From Nitrospirota bacterium (GTDB taxonomy: Bacteria > Nitrospirota > Nitrospiria > Nitrospirales > Nitrospiraceae), in the NCBI GenBank assembly GCA_040757595.1, contig JBFLWP010000019.1, positions 1 to 64,000 of the forward strand: a DNA stretch of 64,000 nucleotides. Reading direction: 5' to 3'. Shown here one piece after another: positions 56,357-64,000 of the stretch (position 1 is the stretch's first letter; each line of letters opens with the position of its first letter). The notes below the pieces were generated by a model. The model ran no database searches. It was not told where the DNA came from and worked only from the letters and a program-made list of their open reading frames with translations. A program made the position numbers and the translations under genes.

Positions 56357-57055
56357 CGCGGCGGGCGCCGCCTCCGGCGCTGGCGATCCGTCGGCTTCTT
56401 CCGCCAGCCGGACCGCGCGGCGGAGCTGGGCGGCGAAGCTGGAGCGGCTGAAGGCCCAGGCGGGCGAGACGGGCAAGCCCGCTTCGCGCAGGGCGTTGGC
56501 CACATACTGGTGGCACTGGTGCGCGAGCAGGTTATAGGAGCGTGCCGCCGGGTAGAAGCGGCTCTCGCCGGTGACCAGGACGGGCTCGGACGAAGCGAGG
56601 GTCGTCTGAAGGTGGCGGCGCAGGCGGCCGTACCCCTCCTCGCTCAACTGAAAGGTGAACCGGTCCGAGGGCGGCTCCGGCGTGCGGTCGGCCCAGACCC
56701 GCCCGTGCTCCCCGACCTCGACCACGCCGGGCGGAAACCGGAACAGGACCCGGAGCACGCCGCCGGGCCCCTGACGGCCTTCCAGGTACCAGCCCTGCTC
56801 GGCATAGCCCCACTCCTCAAAACGCTGAATGCTGAACGCGGAAGTTTGAATGTCGGAAGCGGCCGGTTGACCACTCAGAGGAAAGGCGATCATCGCGTGC
56901 CAGGTGTCCAGCGACACGATGACCGTGCGGCTCGGCGCTCCTGGCTGCGGCGGCCAGAGCTCGCGAACCGGCCCGGCGCAGCCGCAGGTGAAGAGGAGCA
57001 AGCCGACGGCGGCCCAATCTCCCCATGCTCGGCAAGACGCGCGGAGCCTGTCCAT
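56315..57055 (-). CDS. DUF2459-like lipoprotein
   Basis: 246 residues from the ATG at 57055. Lipobox-like LLLFTCGCAG, then VSLDTWHAMIAFPLS, GYAEQGWYLEGRQG, SEPVLVTGESRFYPAARSYN and LLAHQCHQYVANALREAGLP, as in the DUF2459/TIGR02117 family. The segment SDIQTSAFSIQRFEE is encoded by DNA matching the intergenic AACGCTGAATGCTGAACGCGG-type repeat, so a repeat was absorbed in frame. Role unknown. Confidence 0.72.
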   Translation of the reverse strand: MDRLRASCRAWGDWAAVGLLLFTCGCAGPVRELWPPQPGAPSRTVIVSLDTWHAMIAFPLSGQPAASDIQTSAFSIQRFEEWGYAEQGWYLEGRQGPGGVLRVLFRFPPGVVEVGEHGRVWADRTPEPPSDRFTFQLSEEGYGRLRRHLQTTLASSEPVLVTGESRFYPAARSYNLLAHQCHQYVANALREAGLPVSPAWAFSRSSFAAQLRRAVRLAEEADGSPAPEAAPAASRASNRSKARPDD

Positions 57056-57197
57056 CCTGTCCCCGGTTCCGAGAGCGCTCTTCACGGCCCTCCCCGATTC
57101 TCACGCAAGCGGATGCCAATGGCAACCATCCGAGCCGGCCGGGCCCAAGCTCCGTGAGCTTGACGACCTTATGTATTGGTGCTATGGGTGGCGCGCC

Positions 57198-58844
57198 ATG
57201 AGGATGATGCTGTGTCACCTGACCGGCAGCCTGCGCGGTCGGACCCAGTATCTGGACACCGACTCGATCAGCTTCGGGATCGGGGAAGGGTGCGGCGTCG
57301 TCTTCGACAGCGACCAGGATTCGGCCGTCTGCCCCGTGCACGCGGAGCTGACGGTCGAGGATCACGGCCCGATCATCAGGGATCGGAGCGGGCGGGACGC
57401 TCTGTTCATCAACGGCCAGCGCCGGACGGAAGCCGATCTGAAGGACGGGGATCTCATCCAGTTCGGCGAGGACGGCCCGCTGGTCCGTTTCCGCATCCAC
57501 CCTGACGCAGCACCCGAAACCAAGCCCTGGCGCCAGATCGTCACCGATTGCCGCGACATCGTCGTCCGGACCCCCCATCCCCGCTACCTGTCGCCGCTGT
57601 ACCTGGCCCGCCACCTGCTGACCGACGTGGCCCGGTACGGCTCGCCGGCGGTCAAGCTGGCGGCGGTCACCGCGATCCTGGCCCCGGTTCTGCTCATCGC
57701 CGCGCTGACGCTGGCCCTCTATCGGCAGTACCAGGCCACGAGCGCATCCGAGCGGCAGAGGGCCGAGCTCATCCGTCAGCTTGAGACCGGGCGCCTGACC
57801 CTGATGGAGCTGGAGCGGCGCATCGAGCAGGAGCGTCTGAGCGCCGACGAGCTGCGCCGGCAGCAGGACGAGTTGGTCCAGCGACTGACCGCGGCGCTGA
57901 CGCAACAGGAAGCGGCCCGCCGCTCCCAGCAGGAGCTGCAAGCGATCCGCCGTCAGCTCGCCGAGCTGCAAGGGGCCCAGCGGTTCGCCGAGGAGCTCGC
58001 CAGCCGCTTCCAGAGCGGAGTCGGGCTGCTCCAGGGCGGATACGGATTCAAGGAGAAGGGCACCGGCCGCCCGCTGCGGTACCAGGGCTTCGATCGGCTC
58101 GGGAACCCCTACGTGGACAAGGACGGGAACACCCTGGTGACCGTGGAAGGCACGACGCCCCCGGTGGTGATTTTCTATGCCGGCACCGGATTTCTCGTGG
58201 ACCGGCAGGGCACGATCGTGACCAACCGCCACCTGGTGCGGATGTGGGAAGTCTACGAGCCGGCCAAAGAGGCCATCCGGGCCGGCTTCGAGCCGCACCT
58301 GTATTTGTTGCGCATCTTCTTCCCCGGCACGCCGGCTCCCTACGATCTCCGGCTGGTCGCGGCCTCCGAGCAGGTGGACCTCGCGGTGCTGCGGACCGAC
58401 CGGGCGCCGACCGGCTCGGCGCCGCTTCCCCTGGCTCACCATGGCGACACACCCCACGTCGGGGAGCCGGTCGTGGTGCTGAGCTACCCCGGGAGCTTCG
58501 ACAGTCTCCTGGGCCGTCTGGCGGGACCGGTCAGCGAAGAGATTCTCCGCGAAGCCGGCGCCGACCCGGCCAAACTGGCCGAGCGGCTCGCGGGCCGAAA
58601 GTTGATCCGTCCTCTGGCCACGCAAGGGCACGTGGCCGACTCCTCGTCCGAAGCCATCACGTTCGAGGCCGCGTCGGCCAGCGGGAGCAGCGGCGGTCCC
58701 GTGCTCGACCGGGCCGGCCGGGTGGTCGCGATCAACCGGGCCGTCCTGCACAAGGTCGGGCAATTGAACGTGGGGTTGCCGGTCCGCTTCGTCCACGACC
58801 TGCTGGGCGGAACGGACGCCGCCGGCCCGCGGGCCGGGTCCTGA
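57198..58844 (+). CDS. FHA domain, membrane helix, coiled coil and trypsin-like protease
   Basis: About 548 residues from ATG 57198. FHA domain (VCPVHAELTVEDHGPIIRD, GRDALFINGQ) in the first 120 residues, membrane helix (AVTAILAPVLLIAALTLALY), long coiled coil (ERQRAELIRQLETGR to QAIRRQLAELQ), then an S1C protease with TNRHLV (His), VDLAVL (Asp) and SASGSSGGPV (Ser). The FHA is cytoplasmic and the protease periplasmic, so phospho-dependent control of a periplasmic protease is plausible. The longer frame upstream is antisense to the lipoprotein. Confidence 0.8.
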   Translation: MRMMLCHLTGSLRGRTQYLDTDSISFGIGEGCGVVFDSDQDSAVCPVHAELTVEDHGPIIRDRSGRDALFINGQRRTEADLKDGDLIQFGEDGPLVRFRIHPDAAPETKPWRQIVTDCRDIVVRTPHPRYLSPLYLARHLLTDVARYGSPAVKLAAVTAILAPVLLIAALTLALYRQYQATSASERQRAELIRQLETGRLTLMELERRIEQERLSADELRRQQDELVQRLTAALTQQEAARRSQQELQAIRRQLAELQGAQRFAEELASRFQSGVGLLQGGYGFKEKGTGRPLRYQGFDRLGNPYVDKDGNTLVTVEGTTPPVVIFYAGTGFLVDRQGTIVTNRHLVRMWEVYEPAKEAIRAGFEPHLYLLRIFFPGTPAPYDLRLVAASEQVDLAVLRTDRAPTGSAPLPLAHHGDTPHVGEPVVVLSYPGSFDSLLGRLAGPVSEEILREAGADPAKLAERLAGRKLIRPLATQGHVADSSSEAITFEAASASGSSGGPVLDRAGRVVAINRAVLHKVGQLNVGLPVRFVHDLLGGTDAAGPRAGS

Positions 58845-58850
58845 AGACGC

Positions 58851-59732
58851 ATGGAGAGTCCCTTGCGCATCCTGCTCGCGGTGGACGCCTCGCCCGACTC
58901 CAGGCAGGCGGCGCAGGTGATCGCGCATCTGGCCGCGCCGCCGGAGCTCCACGTGCTGAACGTCGTGGATCTGGCCGCCCTGAAGCACGCCTATCCGTCG
59001 TTGGAGGCGGGAGCCGGCTTGCTCGAGACCTACCGCAAGGAAGTCTCGGAAGCGGCCGAGCGGATCCTCCACGAGATGAAAGCGGAGTTGACGCCCCATG
59101 CCGCCCGCATCCGGCTGATCGCCGACACGGGCGACGCAGCGGAGAGCATCATCCAGACCGCGGAAGAGACCGGCGCGGACCTGGTGGTCCTGGGGCAGCG
59201 CGGCTTGACGGCCAACCCCGCGTTTCTGCTCGGCGGGGTTTCCCAGAAGGTCGCCACCTACGCGCCCTGCTCCGTGCTGGTGGTCAAGACCCCGGTTCCC
59301 TCGCTGGATCGTCTCCTCCTGGCCGTGGATGGATCGGACGCATCGAAAAAAACGGCTCGCTTCCTGGCCGGCCATCCGTTCAGGGGCCGTCCACACCTGA
59401 CCGTCGTCACGGCCTGGCCCGTGCAGCGCCCAAACTCCTTCGGCCGGGTCACCGGCGGGCGCGACCTGTCGGACGCAGCGCGGGCGGCCAGAACGGAGGG
59501 GGAAGCCCTGCTCAAGGACGTCGCCGCGAGATTGCAGCAGGCTTATGAAGTCGAGACTGAGTGGCTCCAGGGGGACCCGGCCTTCGCGATCCTGGAAGCG
59601 GCGGCGCGCAGCCAGGCCCAGGTGATCGTGCTCGGTGCGCGCGGCCTCACCGGGATCAAACGCTTTCTGCTCGGAAGCGTCTCCCAGAAGGTCCTCGTCC
59701 ATGCCCCCTGCTCCGTCCTCATCGTCCGGTGA
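58851..59732 (+). CDS. Tandem universal stress protein
   Basis: 293 residues, two UspA domains. Domain 1: ILLAVDASPDSRQAAQVI to GQRGLTANPAFLLGGVSQKV; domain 2: LLLAVDGSDASKKTARFL to GARGLTGIKRFLLGSVSQKV. Both have the G-x2-G-x9-G(S/T) ATP-binding motif, clearer in domain 2. It lies 6 bp after the FHA-protease gene, so the two are likely co-transcribed. Confidence 0.9.
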   Translation: MESPLRILLAVDASPDSRQAAQVIAHLAAPPELHVLNVVDLAALKHAYPSLEAGAGLLETYRKEVSEAAERILHEMKAELTPHAARIRLIADTGDAAESIIQTAEETGADLVVLGQRGLTANPAFLLGGVSQKVATYAPCSVLVVKTPVPSLDRLLLAVDGSDASKKTARFLAGHPFRGRPHLTVVTAWPVQRPNSFGRVTGGRDLSDAARAARTEGEALLKDVAARLQQAYEVETEWLQGDPAFAILEAAARSQAQVIVLGARGLTGIKRFLLGSVSQKVLVHAPCSVLIVR

Positions 59733-61670: not shown

Positions 61671-61706
61671 CCGACGGGCGGCTCGCGACAGAGCGTGGAG
61701 GCGGTT

Positions 61707-62090
61707 ATGCACACCGGCGGGTCCGTGAGAGCAGTCCTCGGTTTGGCCTTGCTGATCTGGATCATCGGTCCGCCGCTGGCCCCCTCGTCCCTGTGGGGCC
61801 AGGACCGGCTCGGTGACCCTTCTGCCGGAAAGGCCCTGTACGAGCATCACTGCCAGCAGTGCCATGGAGCCGCCGGGTGGGGGGACGGCCCGAAAGGCCG
61901 GGACCTGATCGTGCCGCCGGCCAACTTCCACAGCCCGGTCTTCCGGTTGAAATCGGACGAGCAGGTGCTGATGAGCATCGAGTTCGGGGTGGTAATGAGC
62001 TCCATGCACGCCTGGCGCGGCCGGCTCGGCGAACAGGAGATGCGGGACCTCGTGGCCTACGTGCGGCTGCTGTCCCAGCAGGTCCGATAG
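61707..62090 (+). CDS. Periplasmic monoheme cytochrome c
   Basis: 127 residues from ATG 61707 with GGAGG upstream (GTG 61695 also possible). Signal peptide (LGLALLIWIIGPPLAPSSLWGQ), heme motif CQQCHG and Met ligand in VMSSMHAWRG. Clear paralog of 37245-37607, sharing the DLIVPPANF and SDEQVLMSI blocks. A likely small electron carrier. Confidence 0.87.
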   Translation: MHTGGSVRAVLGLALLIWIIGPPLAPSSLWGQDRLGDPSAGKALYEHHCQQCHGAAGWGDGPKGRDLIVPPANFHSPVFRLKSDEQVLMSIEFGVVMSSMHAWRGRLGEQEMRDLVAYVRLLSQQVR

Positions 62091-62215
62091 CCGATCCAGC
62101 CCGTCTCCCGTCCGACCGCGCGCGACGACGCCGGCTCATTGACTTGCGCCGGTGGTCGTGGCAGCTTGCGGCAGAGCCGGGGCGACGGCCCCCGGGCACG
62201 CAGCGAGGACTTCCG

Positions 62216-64000
62216 ATGACTTCCTACTCCGGCTCGAGGGAATCAGCGGCCGGCCCCCATCCGGTCGGCGAATCCTTCCGCATCAAGATCGTCCAGACGC
62301 TCAAGAAGGTCCCGTACGACCTCCGCGTGGCGGCCCTCCGGGAGGCCCACTACAACGTGCTCGCCCTGCCGCGCGACCGGGTCTACCTGGATTTCGCCAC
62401 CACCCGCGGGAACTCCGGCCTCACCGACAGGCAGCTCTCCGCACTGATGATCGGGGACGAGGCCTATGCCGGGAGCGCCAACTTCTATGCGCTCGAGCGG
62501 ATCTGCCAGGAGACCTTCGGGAAGCGTTTCACCGTGCCCACCCACCAGGGACGAGGGGCCGAGCACCTGATCCTCCGCGGGCTCCTCCAGCCGGGCCAGA
62601 CCGCCGCCACGAACGGGAACCTGACGACGCTCCAGCCGCTGGCCGCCGCCCTGCGCCTGCAGGTGGCGTCTCTGCTGCCGGACGAGACGTTCGACCCGCT
62701 CACACCCAGGGAGTTCAAGGCCGATCCGCCCCTTGCGCGGCTGGAGGCCCTGCTCGCGGCCGGGTCGGTCAAGCTCGTCATGCTGGGCGCGGCCCTGCCC
62801 CAGTTCGGCGGCCAGCCCCTCTCCCTGGACAGCCTCCAGGCCTGCGCCCAGCTCGCCCGCCGGGCCGGCGTGCCCCTGGCCCTGGATGCCTCCATGCTGG
62901 CCTCCGCCGCCTTCCTCTATAAGAAGAGCCGGGCCGGGGACCAGGACCTGCATTCGCTCATCCGCCGTTACGCCGACTCCTGCGACATCCTGTACCTCAG
63001 CGGCCGCGAAGACGCAGGCTGCCACACGGGCGGGCTCATCGCCACCGACGATCAGACCTTCTATGAAACCTTCCGCAGCCTGGTGGTGGTCTACGAGGGG
63101 CTGCACACCTACGGGGGTCAGGCCGGCCGCGACATGCAGGTCCTCGCACAGGGCCTGCTGGACATGCAGGACGAGAGCTACCTGACGTTCCGCCTGCGCA
63201 AGCTGGAGTACCTGGCCCGGAACCTGGGAAAGGCCGGCTACCCCCTGTACCAGCCGCTCGGGCTCTCCGGCGTCTGTCTGGACTGCCGGCGCCTGTCCCT
63301 CCGCGGCCTGCCGGAGCTGGACGGAAGCAGCCCGCCCTCGGCCAACCTCGCCGCCCTGCTCTACCTGGTCTCCGGCATCCGCGCCAGGCCGATGCCCGCG
63401 CGGGAGCTTGGGCGGGACCTGGACCTCCTGGGGCTCTTCGTGCCCCGCCGAACCTACACCGAGCGGCAGATTGACTACCTGATCGAGAGCTGTGAGCAGC
63501 TCAAACGGTACCGGATCGTCAACCAACTCCGGCCGGCGGAGCCGGCCGCCCCTTCTCCCGAACTGATGCGCTACTCGGTGGACGGCCCCTTCATCACCGA
63601 CTACCACGGCGACTTCACGCCGACCCACCAGCCGGAGCCCTACTTCATCAAGGTCGTGGAGCCCTTCCGCCTGAAGTCCGCCCGGGAGCGGTCGCGGGCG
63701 ATCCGGGAGGCCGGCTACAACACGTTCCTGCTCAGGTCCGAAGACATCTACATCGACCTGCTCACCGATTCCGGCACCGCCGCCATGAGCAACCAGCAGT
63801 GGGCCCGTATGCTGGAGGTCCGCGAGTCCGAGTTGGGAAGCGAGGCCTTCCGCCTGTTCGCGGAGCGGTGCCGGGACGTGCTGGGCTTCCGCCACGTCCT
63901 CCCGACCCACCAGGGACGGGCCGCCGAACACCTCCTCTCCCAGGCCATGATCCAGCCGGGCCAGTACGTGATCAACAACATGTACTTCACGACGACGCGG
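62216..64000 (+). CDS. Tandem tryptophanase/tyrosine phenol-lyase-like fusion (3' partial)
   Basis: 595 codons, open at the window end. Unit 1 (residues 20-440) has GDEAYAGSANFYALE, THQGRGAEHLI, LALDASMLASAAF and GLHTYGGQAGRDMQ as in tryptophanase. At the PLP-lysine motif SxKKD it reads SGRED, with Glu at the lysine position (265), and TDSGT is replaced by TTRGN. Unit 2 starts near residue 475 and shows YIDLLTDSGTAAMS and THQGRAAEHLL before the cut. So unit 1 looks non-catalytic and unit 2 possibly active. Two complete folds in one chain are unusual; family members are single-unit tetramers. Confidence 0.83.
   Translation, partial: MTSYSGSRESAAGPHPVGESFRIKIVQTLKKVPYDLRVAALREAHYNVLALPRDRVYLDFATTRGNSGLTDRQLSALMIGDEAYAGSANFYALERICQETFGKRFTVPTHQGRGAEHLILRGLLQPGQTAATNGNLTTLQPLAAALRLQVASLLPDETFDPLTPREFKADPPLARLEALLAAGSVKLVMLGAALPQFGGQPLSLDSLQACAQLARRAGVPLALDASMLASAAFLYKKSRAGDQDLHSLIRRYADSCDILYLSGREDAGCHTGGLIATDDQTFYETFRSLVVVYEGLHTYGGQAGRDMQVLAQGLLDMQDESYLTFRLRKLEYLARNLGKAGYPLYQPLGLSGVCLDCRRLSLRGLPELDGSSPPSANLAALLYLVSGIRARPMPARELGRDLDLLGLFVPRRTYTERQIDYLIESCEQLKRYRIVNQLRPAEPAAPSPELMRYSVDGPFITDYHGDFTPTHQPEPYFIKVVEPFRLKSARERSRAIREAGYNTFLLRSEDIYIDLLTDSGTAAMSNQQWARMLEVRESELGSEAFRLFAERCRDVLGFRHVLPTHQGRAAEHLLSQAMIQPGQYVINNMYFTTTR

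Follow-up and report, generated by a model that had tools for sequence, protein, structure and literature searches.

Does a gene that joins two tryptophanase-fold units in one reading frame, the first of them without the PLP lysine, encode a single working enzyme, and which unit would then supply each part of its active site? Tyrosine phenol-lyase (TPL) and tryptophanase work as catalytic dimers of identical subunits, and each dimer contains two active sites. Each site is built mostly from one subunit, and the partner adds a few residues, notably Tyr71 and Tyr291 (Citrobacter freundii TPL numbering is used throughout). The window analyzed here comprises positions 1-64000 of contig C19 of a Nitrospirota genome (G000), a contig that ends at 66702. 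The tandem gene is an uninterrupted frame of 924 aa (P0001; 62216..64990, + strand) that extends beyond the window. Its features are as follows, with coordinates past 64000 referring to the contig.

62216..64000 in the window, stop at 64988-64990 on contig C19, + strand: tandem TPL-fold gene (open reading frame and homologues)
62205..62209, + strand: Shine-Dalgarno-like GAGGA, 6 bases 5' of the ATG at 62216 (read from the sequence)
62258..63541, + strand: unit 1, residues 15-442; it has lost pocket residues and keeps putative donor segments (PF01212 match, AF2, PDB match)
62399..62413, + strand: TTRGN replacing TDSGT in unit 1 (Asp50 to Thr, Ser51 to Arg; alignment)
62453..62476, + strand: unit 1 retains GDEAYAGS, the donor helix, whose Tyr84 is equivalent to TPL Tyr71 (alignment)
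62999..63013, + strand: SGRED in unit 1, with Glu265 at the position of the Schiff-base lysine (TPL Lys257; alignment)
63095..63118, + strand: unit 1 retains EGLHTYGG, the donor loop, whose Leu296 is equivalent to TPL Met288 and Tyr299 to TPL Tyr291 (alignment)
63431..63433, + strand: Gly406 of unit 1, at the position of the substrate-carboxylate arginine (TPL Arg404; alignment)
63542..63631, + strand: diverged C-terminal element of unit 1 and linker (residues 443-472; lowest conservation in the chain, 35-68% identity)
63632..64000, continuing to 64987 past the window, + strand: unit 2, TPL-type (from residue 473; relatives, tree)
63764..63778, + strand: TDSGT kept in unit 2 (alignment)
63818..63841, + strand: VRESELGS replacing GDEAYAGS in unit 2 (Tyr71 to Glu539; alignment)
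63986..63991, + strand: Phe591-Thr592 of unit 2, PLP-stacking Phe123 and TPL-type Thr124 (alignment)

The presence of two fold units in one frame, proposed in a preliminary description of this locus, was borne out by the reading frame and by two matches to Pfam PF01212 (Beta_elim_lyase), one at 62402-63484 in the window and the other at 63755-64885 on the contig. The motifs quoted in that description were all recovered (TTRGN, GDEAYAGS and SGRED in unit 1; TDSGT and RESELGSE in unit 2). No stop separates the units, an outcome that had been considered as a possible objection, and the same unbroken fusion was found in genomes G002 and G396. Extension along the contig, which had been suggested, revealed an intact SAKKD motif in unit 2 past the window edge, with Lys725 as the Schiff-base lysine, which contradicts the other objection, that unit 2 might also lack its lysine.

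As modeled, unit 1 comprises an entire fold-type-I domain. Its AF2 model had a mean pLDDT of 84 and a pTM of 0.88, and its best match in the PDB was the TPL structure 6dvx (TM 0.90, 33% identity). Unit 1 occupies a very long branch in the tree; its placement inside the TPL clade was not rejected (AU p 0.239), and an origin by duplication of a TPL is plausible from these sequence comparisons.

The distribution of active site residues was examined in an alignment of 45 single-unit relatives with three unit 1 and three unit 2 sequences, so that statements about tandems refer to three full sequences, all related. Unit 1 of all three tandems has lost 10 of the 18 cis residues that are invariant in the family: Phe36 (now Leu), Asp50 (Thr or Ala), Ser51 (Arg), Phe123 (Leu), Asn185 (Pro), Arg217 (Met or Leu), Lys256 (Arg), Lys257 (Glu), Asn262 (His) and Arg404 (Gly or Thr). 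It keeps Thr49, Gln98-Gly99-Arg100, Asp214 and, in most cases, Ser254, and its alignment is uncertain near Arg381 and Phe448 because of deletions. Unit 2 of the three tandems retains 18/18 of these cis residues, including the Schiff-base lysine. At Glu69, which we take to be a K+ ligand in TPL, units 1 and 2 alike carry Glu in G000 and G002; in G396 unit 2 keeps it and unit 1 has Gly. Tyr71 and Tyr291 are conserved in all 45 single-unit relatives, and in each of the three tandems they read Tyr and Tyr in unit 1 and Glu and Ser in unit 2. Unit 2 thus does not supply these two tyrosines, and only unit 1 retains both. In the E. coli tryptophanase EcTnaA the equivalent residues, Tyr74 and Tyr307 (numbering checked), form bonds to the phosphate of PLP in the neighboring subunit (PMC2770544). 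In the P. vulgaris enzyme the leaving group is protonated by Tyr72*, which the opposite chain of the catalytic dimer contributes (PMC11301627), and Tyr71 of TPL is the proton donor to the leaving group (PMC9262865). The remaining residues were assigned to the cis side partly from those papers and partly from the known structures of TPL. The suggestion in the preliminary description that the losses are complementary, as if the chain rebuilt one shared site, is the best-supported reading, and in the alignment it extends to Tyr291, Arg404, Arg217, Asn185 and Phe123 and to three species.

Losses were then counted over 117 near-invariant columns, 19 of them within the donor segments (60-75 and 283-300) and 98 outside; the bounds of these segments were chosen by hand, with the pattern already in view, to enclose Tyr71 and Tyr291, and the p-values are therefore indicative. 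Unit 2 has lost the near-invariant residue in 14/117 columns, with 8/19 in the donor segments against 6/98 elsewhere (Fisher p=1.9e-4), and the result held, at 7/18 against 4/96 (p=1.7e-4), once columns in which TPL itself deviates were excluded. Losses in unit 1 are depleted in the same segments (3/19 against 41/98, p=0.04), where 32/34 positions are identical in the three species, compared with 194/402 elsewhere. A crude chain-wide table asking whether all residues lost from unit 2 are kept in unit 1 gave no signal (p=0.78). The signal of complementarity sits in the donor segments and is not chain-wide.

The preliminary description had called the gene a tryptophanase fusion. The assignment of both units to the fold family stands; the tryptophanase identity of unit 2 does not, and by the tree and its specificity residues unit 2 classes as TPL. 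Among solved structures it is closest to TPLs (1c7g, E=1e-168), with identities of 55-57%, and in the tree it forms a clade with characterized TPLs (support 100/99) that leaves the Nitrospirota single copies and E. coli TnaA outside. Five residues that separate TPL from tryptophanase have been listed (PMC5805759). Unit 2 of all three tandems has the TPL-type residue at the four cis positions of this set (Thr124, Met379, Arg381 and Phe448). At the fifth position, Met288, which is presumably donated by the partner subunit, unit 2 has Thr and unit 1 has Leu, the latter an exception to the donor pattern, as are the retention of Glu69 in unit 2 and its loss from unit 1 of G396. Where a tryptophanase would have Asp137, Phe304, Val394, Ile396 and His463 (E. 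coli numbering), unit 2 reads Thr, Thr, Met, Arg and Phe. The single-unit copies of Nitrospirota carry the tryptophanase residue set; the copy on contig C4 of the same genome fell under the TPL cut-off and scored best with the tryptophanase subfamily. Note that the phylum-wide profile search with TIGR02618 used a cut-off (E<=1e-200) that was too strict.

The tandem protein is, in our judgment and with good confidence, a covalently fused asymmetric TPL, a pseudo-heterodimer with one composite site per pair, although we infer the pairing of units, the activity and the substrate from sequence. The fusion, the residue pattern and its conservation in three species, the kinship with TPL and the fold are established by the comparisons above. 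It is also probable that duplication, fusion and reciprocal loss turned the two shared sites of a TPL/tryptophanase family dimer into one composite site. Two TPL-family copies would have been fused into one chain and their roles divided. Unit 2 would hold the whole cis site, with the PLP lysine, the ligands of PLP and carboxylate and the phenol-recognizing Arg381, and would bind both PLP and substrate. Unit 1 would pack on unit 2 of its own or of another chain. Two of its tyrosines, Tyr84 and Tyr299, would then reach the PLP there, with Tyr84 serving as the acid that protonates the leaving group. Each pseudo-dimer would then have one working site, converting L-tyrosine to phenol, pyruvate and ammonia, or catalyzing the reverse reaction. 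The converse site, composed of the unit 1 pocket and Glu539 and Ser759 of unit 2, should be dead because it has lost both its own lysine and the borrowed tyrosines. A structure prediction of the full chain, proposed in the preliminary description, was run in AF2 (pLDDT 79.6, pTM 0.66); it did not settle the interface between units, as the least certain segments include the donor segments of unit 1 (77-85 and 292-302).

Contigs of these genomes are draft and the gene lies close to a contig end, so that an artefact of assembly or sequencing had to be considered, as had the decay of a duplicated gene. However, full uninterrupted tandems are present in G002 (78% identity over 5-923) and in G396, a member of another family of the same order (68% identity), and G025 carries an N-terminal fragment (85% identity) where a contig of 4150 bases ends. 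The unbroken fusion therefore occurs in three genomes of two families, with a fragment in a fourth, and is not an assembly artefact. The fragment contig matches SCVQ01000292.1 ('Nitrospirae bacterium isolate GW928_bin.19') and was the sole match when contigs were scanned for unit 1 with two patterns. No further full tandems were found in searches that covered approximately 400 genomes from the phylum, 175 from the family and 49 from the family to which G396 belongs. Single-unit copies are common among the Nitrospirota genomes searched; plasmid records held ordinary copies only, with at most about 34% identity to unit 1 among the matches listed. In G396, a second TPL/tryptophanase copy was not found at the thresholds used, and the tandem consequently need not act on a separate enzyme. 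Nei-Gojobori estimates for G000 and G002 (dN 0.205 and dS 0.84 for unit 1; dN 0.082 and dS 0.88 for unit 2) indicate that both units are under purifying selection, which is looser on unit 1, and identities between tandem proteins are 58-71% for unit 1 against 77-88% for unit 2. With the fusion conserved and selection purifying, a pseudogene or artefact is extremely improbable and was rejected.

The faster evolution of unit 1 and the loss of its pocket are also what would be expected if it were a mere scaffold for folding or oligomerization, or an allosteric pseudoenzyme, the chemistry of unit 2 having changed so that Tyr71 and Tyr291 are no longer needed; the Glu at the Tyr71 position is invariant in unit 2 and could mean a new function. 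Yet a scaffold offers no reason for keeping the donor tyrosines and their surroundings so much more strictly than the remainder of unit 1, and the TPL substrate residues are all kept in unit 2. We consider this explanation unlikely. Still less probable, though compatible with a composite site, is that unit 1 retains a second, non-covalent ligand site, through which PLP or some other phosphate compound would regulate unit 2. The residues kept in unit 1 make up part of the phosphate cup and the contact to PLP N1, and non-covalent PLP has been proposed for the lysine-less N-terminal half of glycine decarboxylase (PMC7259800). However, the stacking Phe123, Asn185, Arg217 and the carboxylate-binding Arg404 are gone from unit 1, the partner side offers Glu and Ser where tyrosines are expected, and the retained residues may be structural.

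A composite TPL site in a fused chain can be compared with several known systems. TPL itself (EC 4.1.99.2; TIGR02618; C. freundii 1TPL/2EZ1, Erwinia 1C7G) resembles unit 2 in its cis catalytic and specificity residues and in the tree, and shares the fold of unit 1. However, it is a homotetramer of identical chains of ~456 aa with one site each, whereas the tandem has 924 aa, a unit 1 without lysine and a unit 2 without the donated tyrosines. The glycine decarboxylase P-protein (GcvP/GLDC) is likewise a single chain, of >1000 aa, with two related fold-type-I halves of which the N-terminal one lacks the lysine, a layout termed unusual among fold-type-I enzymes (PMC7259800); in some bacteria it occurs as alpha-beta pairs. 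It belongs to a different fold-type-I family with a different reaction, and we claim no close sequence kinship. The tandem matches only Beta_elim_lyase in Pfam and is not a member of the P-protein family, the likeness being one of layout only. In serine palmitoyltransferase, only LCB2 carries the PLP lysine, residues of LCB1 are thought to take part, and there is a single site per heterodimer (PMC3794620), but LCB1 and LCB2 are two unfused genes of a different PLP family. The trypanosomatid pairs AdoMetDC/prozyme and DHS/dead paralogue involve an impaired subunit that needs an inactive paralogue for activity (PMC5201418, PMC3663545); these are separate genes with unrelated folds, described there as cases of allosteric activation. 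The literature searched, with subscription journals mostly outside it, yielded no paper about TPL in Nitrospira and none about a TPL/tryptophanase fusion of this kind. We regard the tandem as probably a further case of a known design principle, that of P-protein and serine palmitoyltransferase, in a variant of a known enzyme family.

The tandem would illustrate a route from a symmetric to an asymmetric enzyme, in which one copy retains the residues that act in cis and the other copy those that are lent in trans. It would also offer a natural half-of-sites TPL in which to ask whether it matters that a dimer has two sites. Since TPL is well studied, with structures and mutants of Tyr71, Phe448, Met379 and Asp214 in the PDB, the prediction is directly testable by a few point changes. 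An automatic label of 'tyrosine phenol-lyase' or 'tryptophanase' conceals the dead half.

The genes surrounding the tandem differ across G000, G002, G025 and G396, and no conserved partner gene was found. A phenol hydroxylase (PF02332) that could act as a phenol sink had no match in the four genomes, but the controls gave no match either, so that this absence carries no weight. A c-type cytochrome gene (61695-62090 in the window) precedes the tandem gene, and in G396 (L061:143-4297) the tandem adjoins a large molybdopterin oxidoreductase resembling the nitrite oxidoreductase alpha subunit and a small c-type cytochrome; the c-type cytochrome near the tandem in both genomes is probably due to chance. 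Past the window, on the opposite strand (L009:13055-14560, about 65054-66559 of contig C19), lie a DarG-like macro-domain protein and a DarT-like ADP-ribosyltransferase, the reading frame of the latter, close to where the contig ends, matching just the final portion of the DarT profile. Upstream, at 56904-59732 of the window, an open reading frame that resembles a fusion of an FHA-domain protein with a trypsin-like protease is followed by a double universal-stress protein (by eye).

Elsewhere in the same genome (L010:8979-13005), the single-unit tryptophanase adjoins a helix-turn-helix protein, and a nearby open reading frame resembles 4-hydroxyphenylpyruvate dioxygenase (by eye); the locus is possibly a cluster for aromatic amino acid breakdown. 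In-frame TAG stops were present in single-unit copies of two relatives, two in G373 (G373:C24:207157-208502) and one in G361 (L046), which suggests that single-unit tryptophanases are decaying in some relatives.
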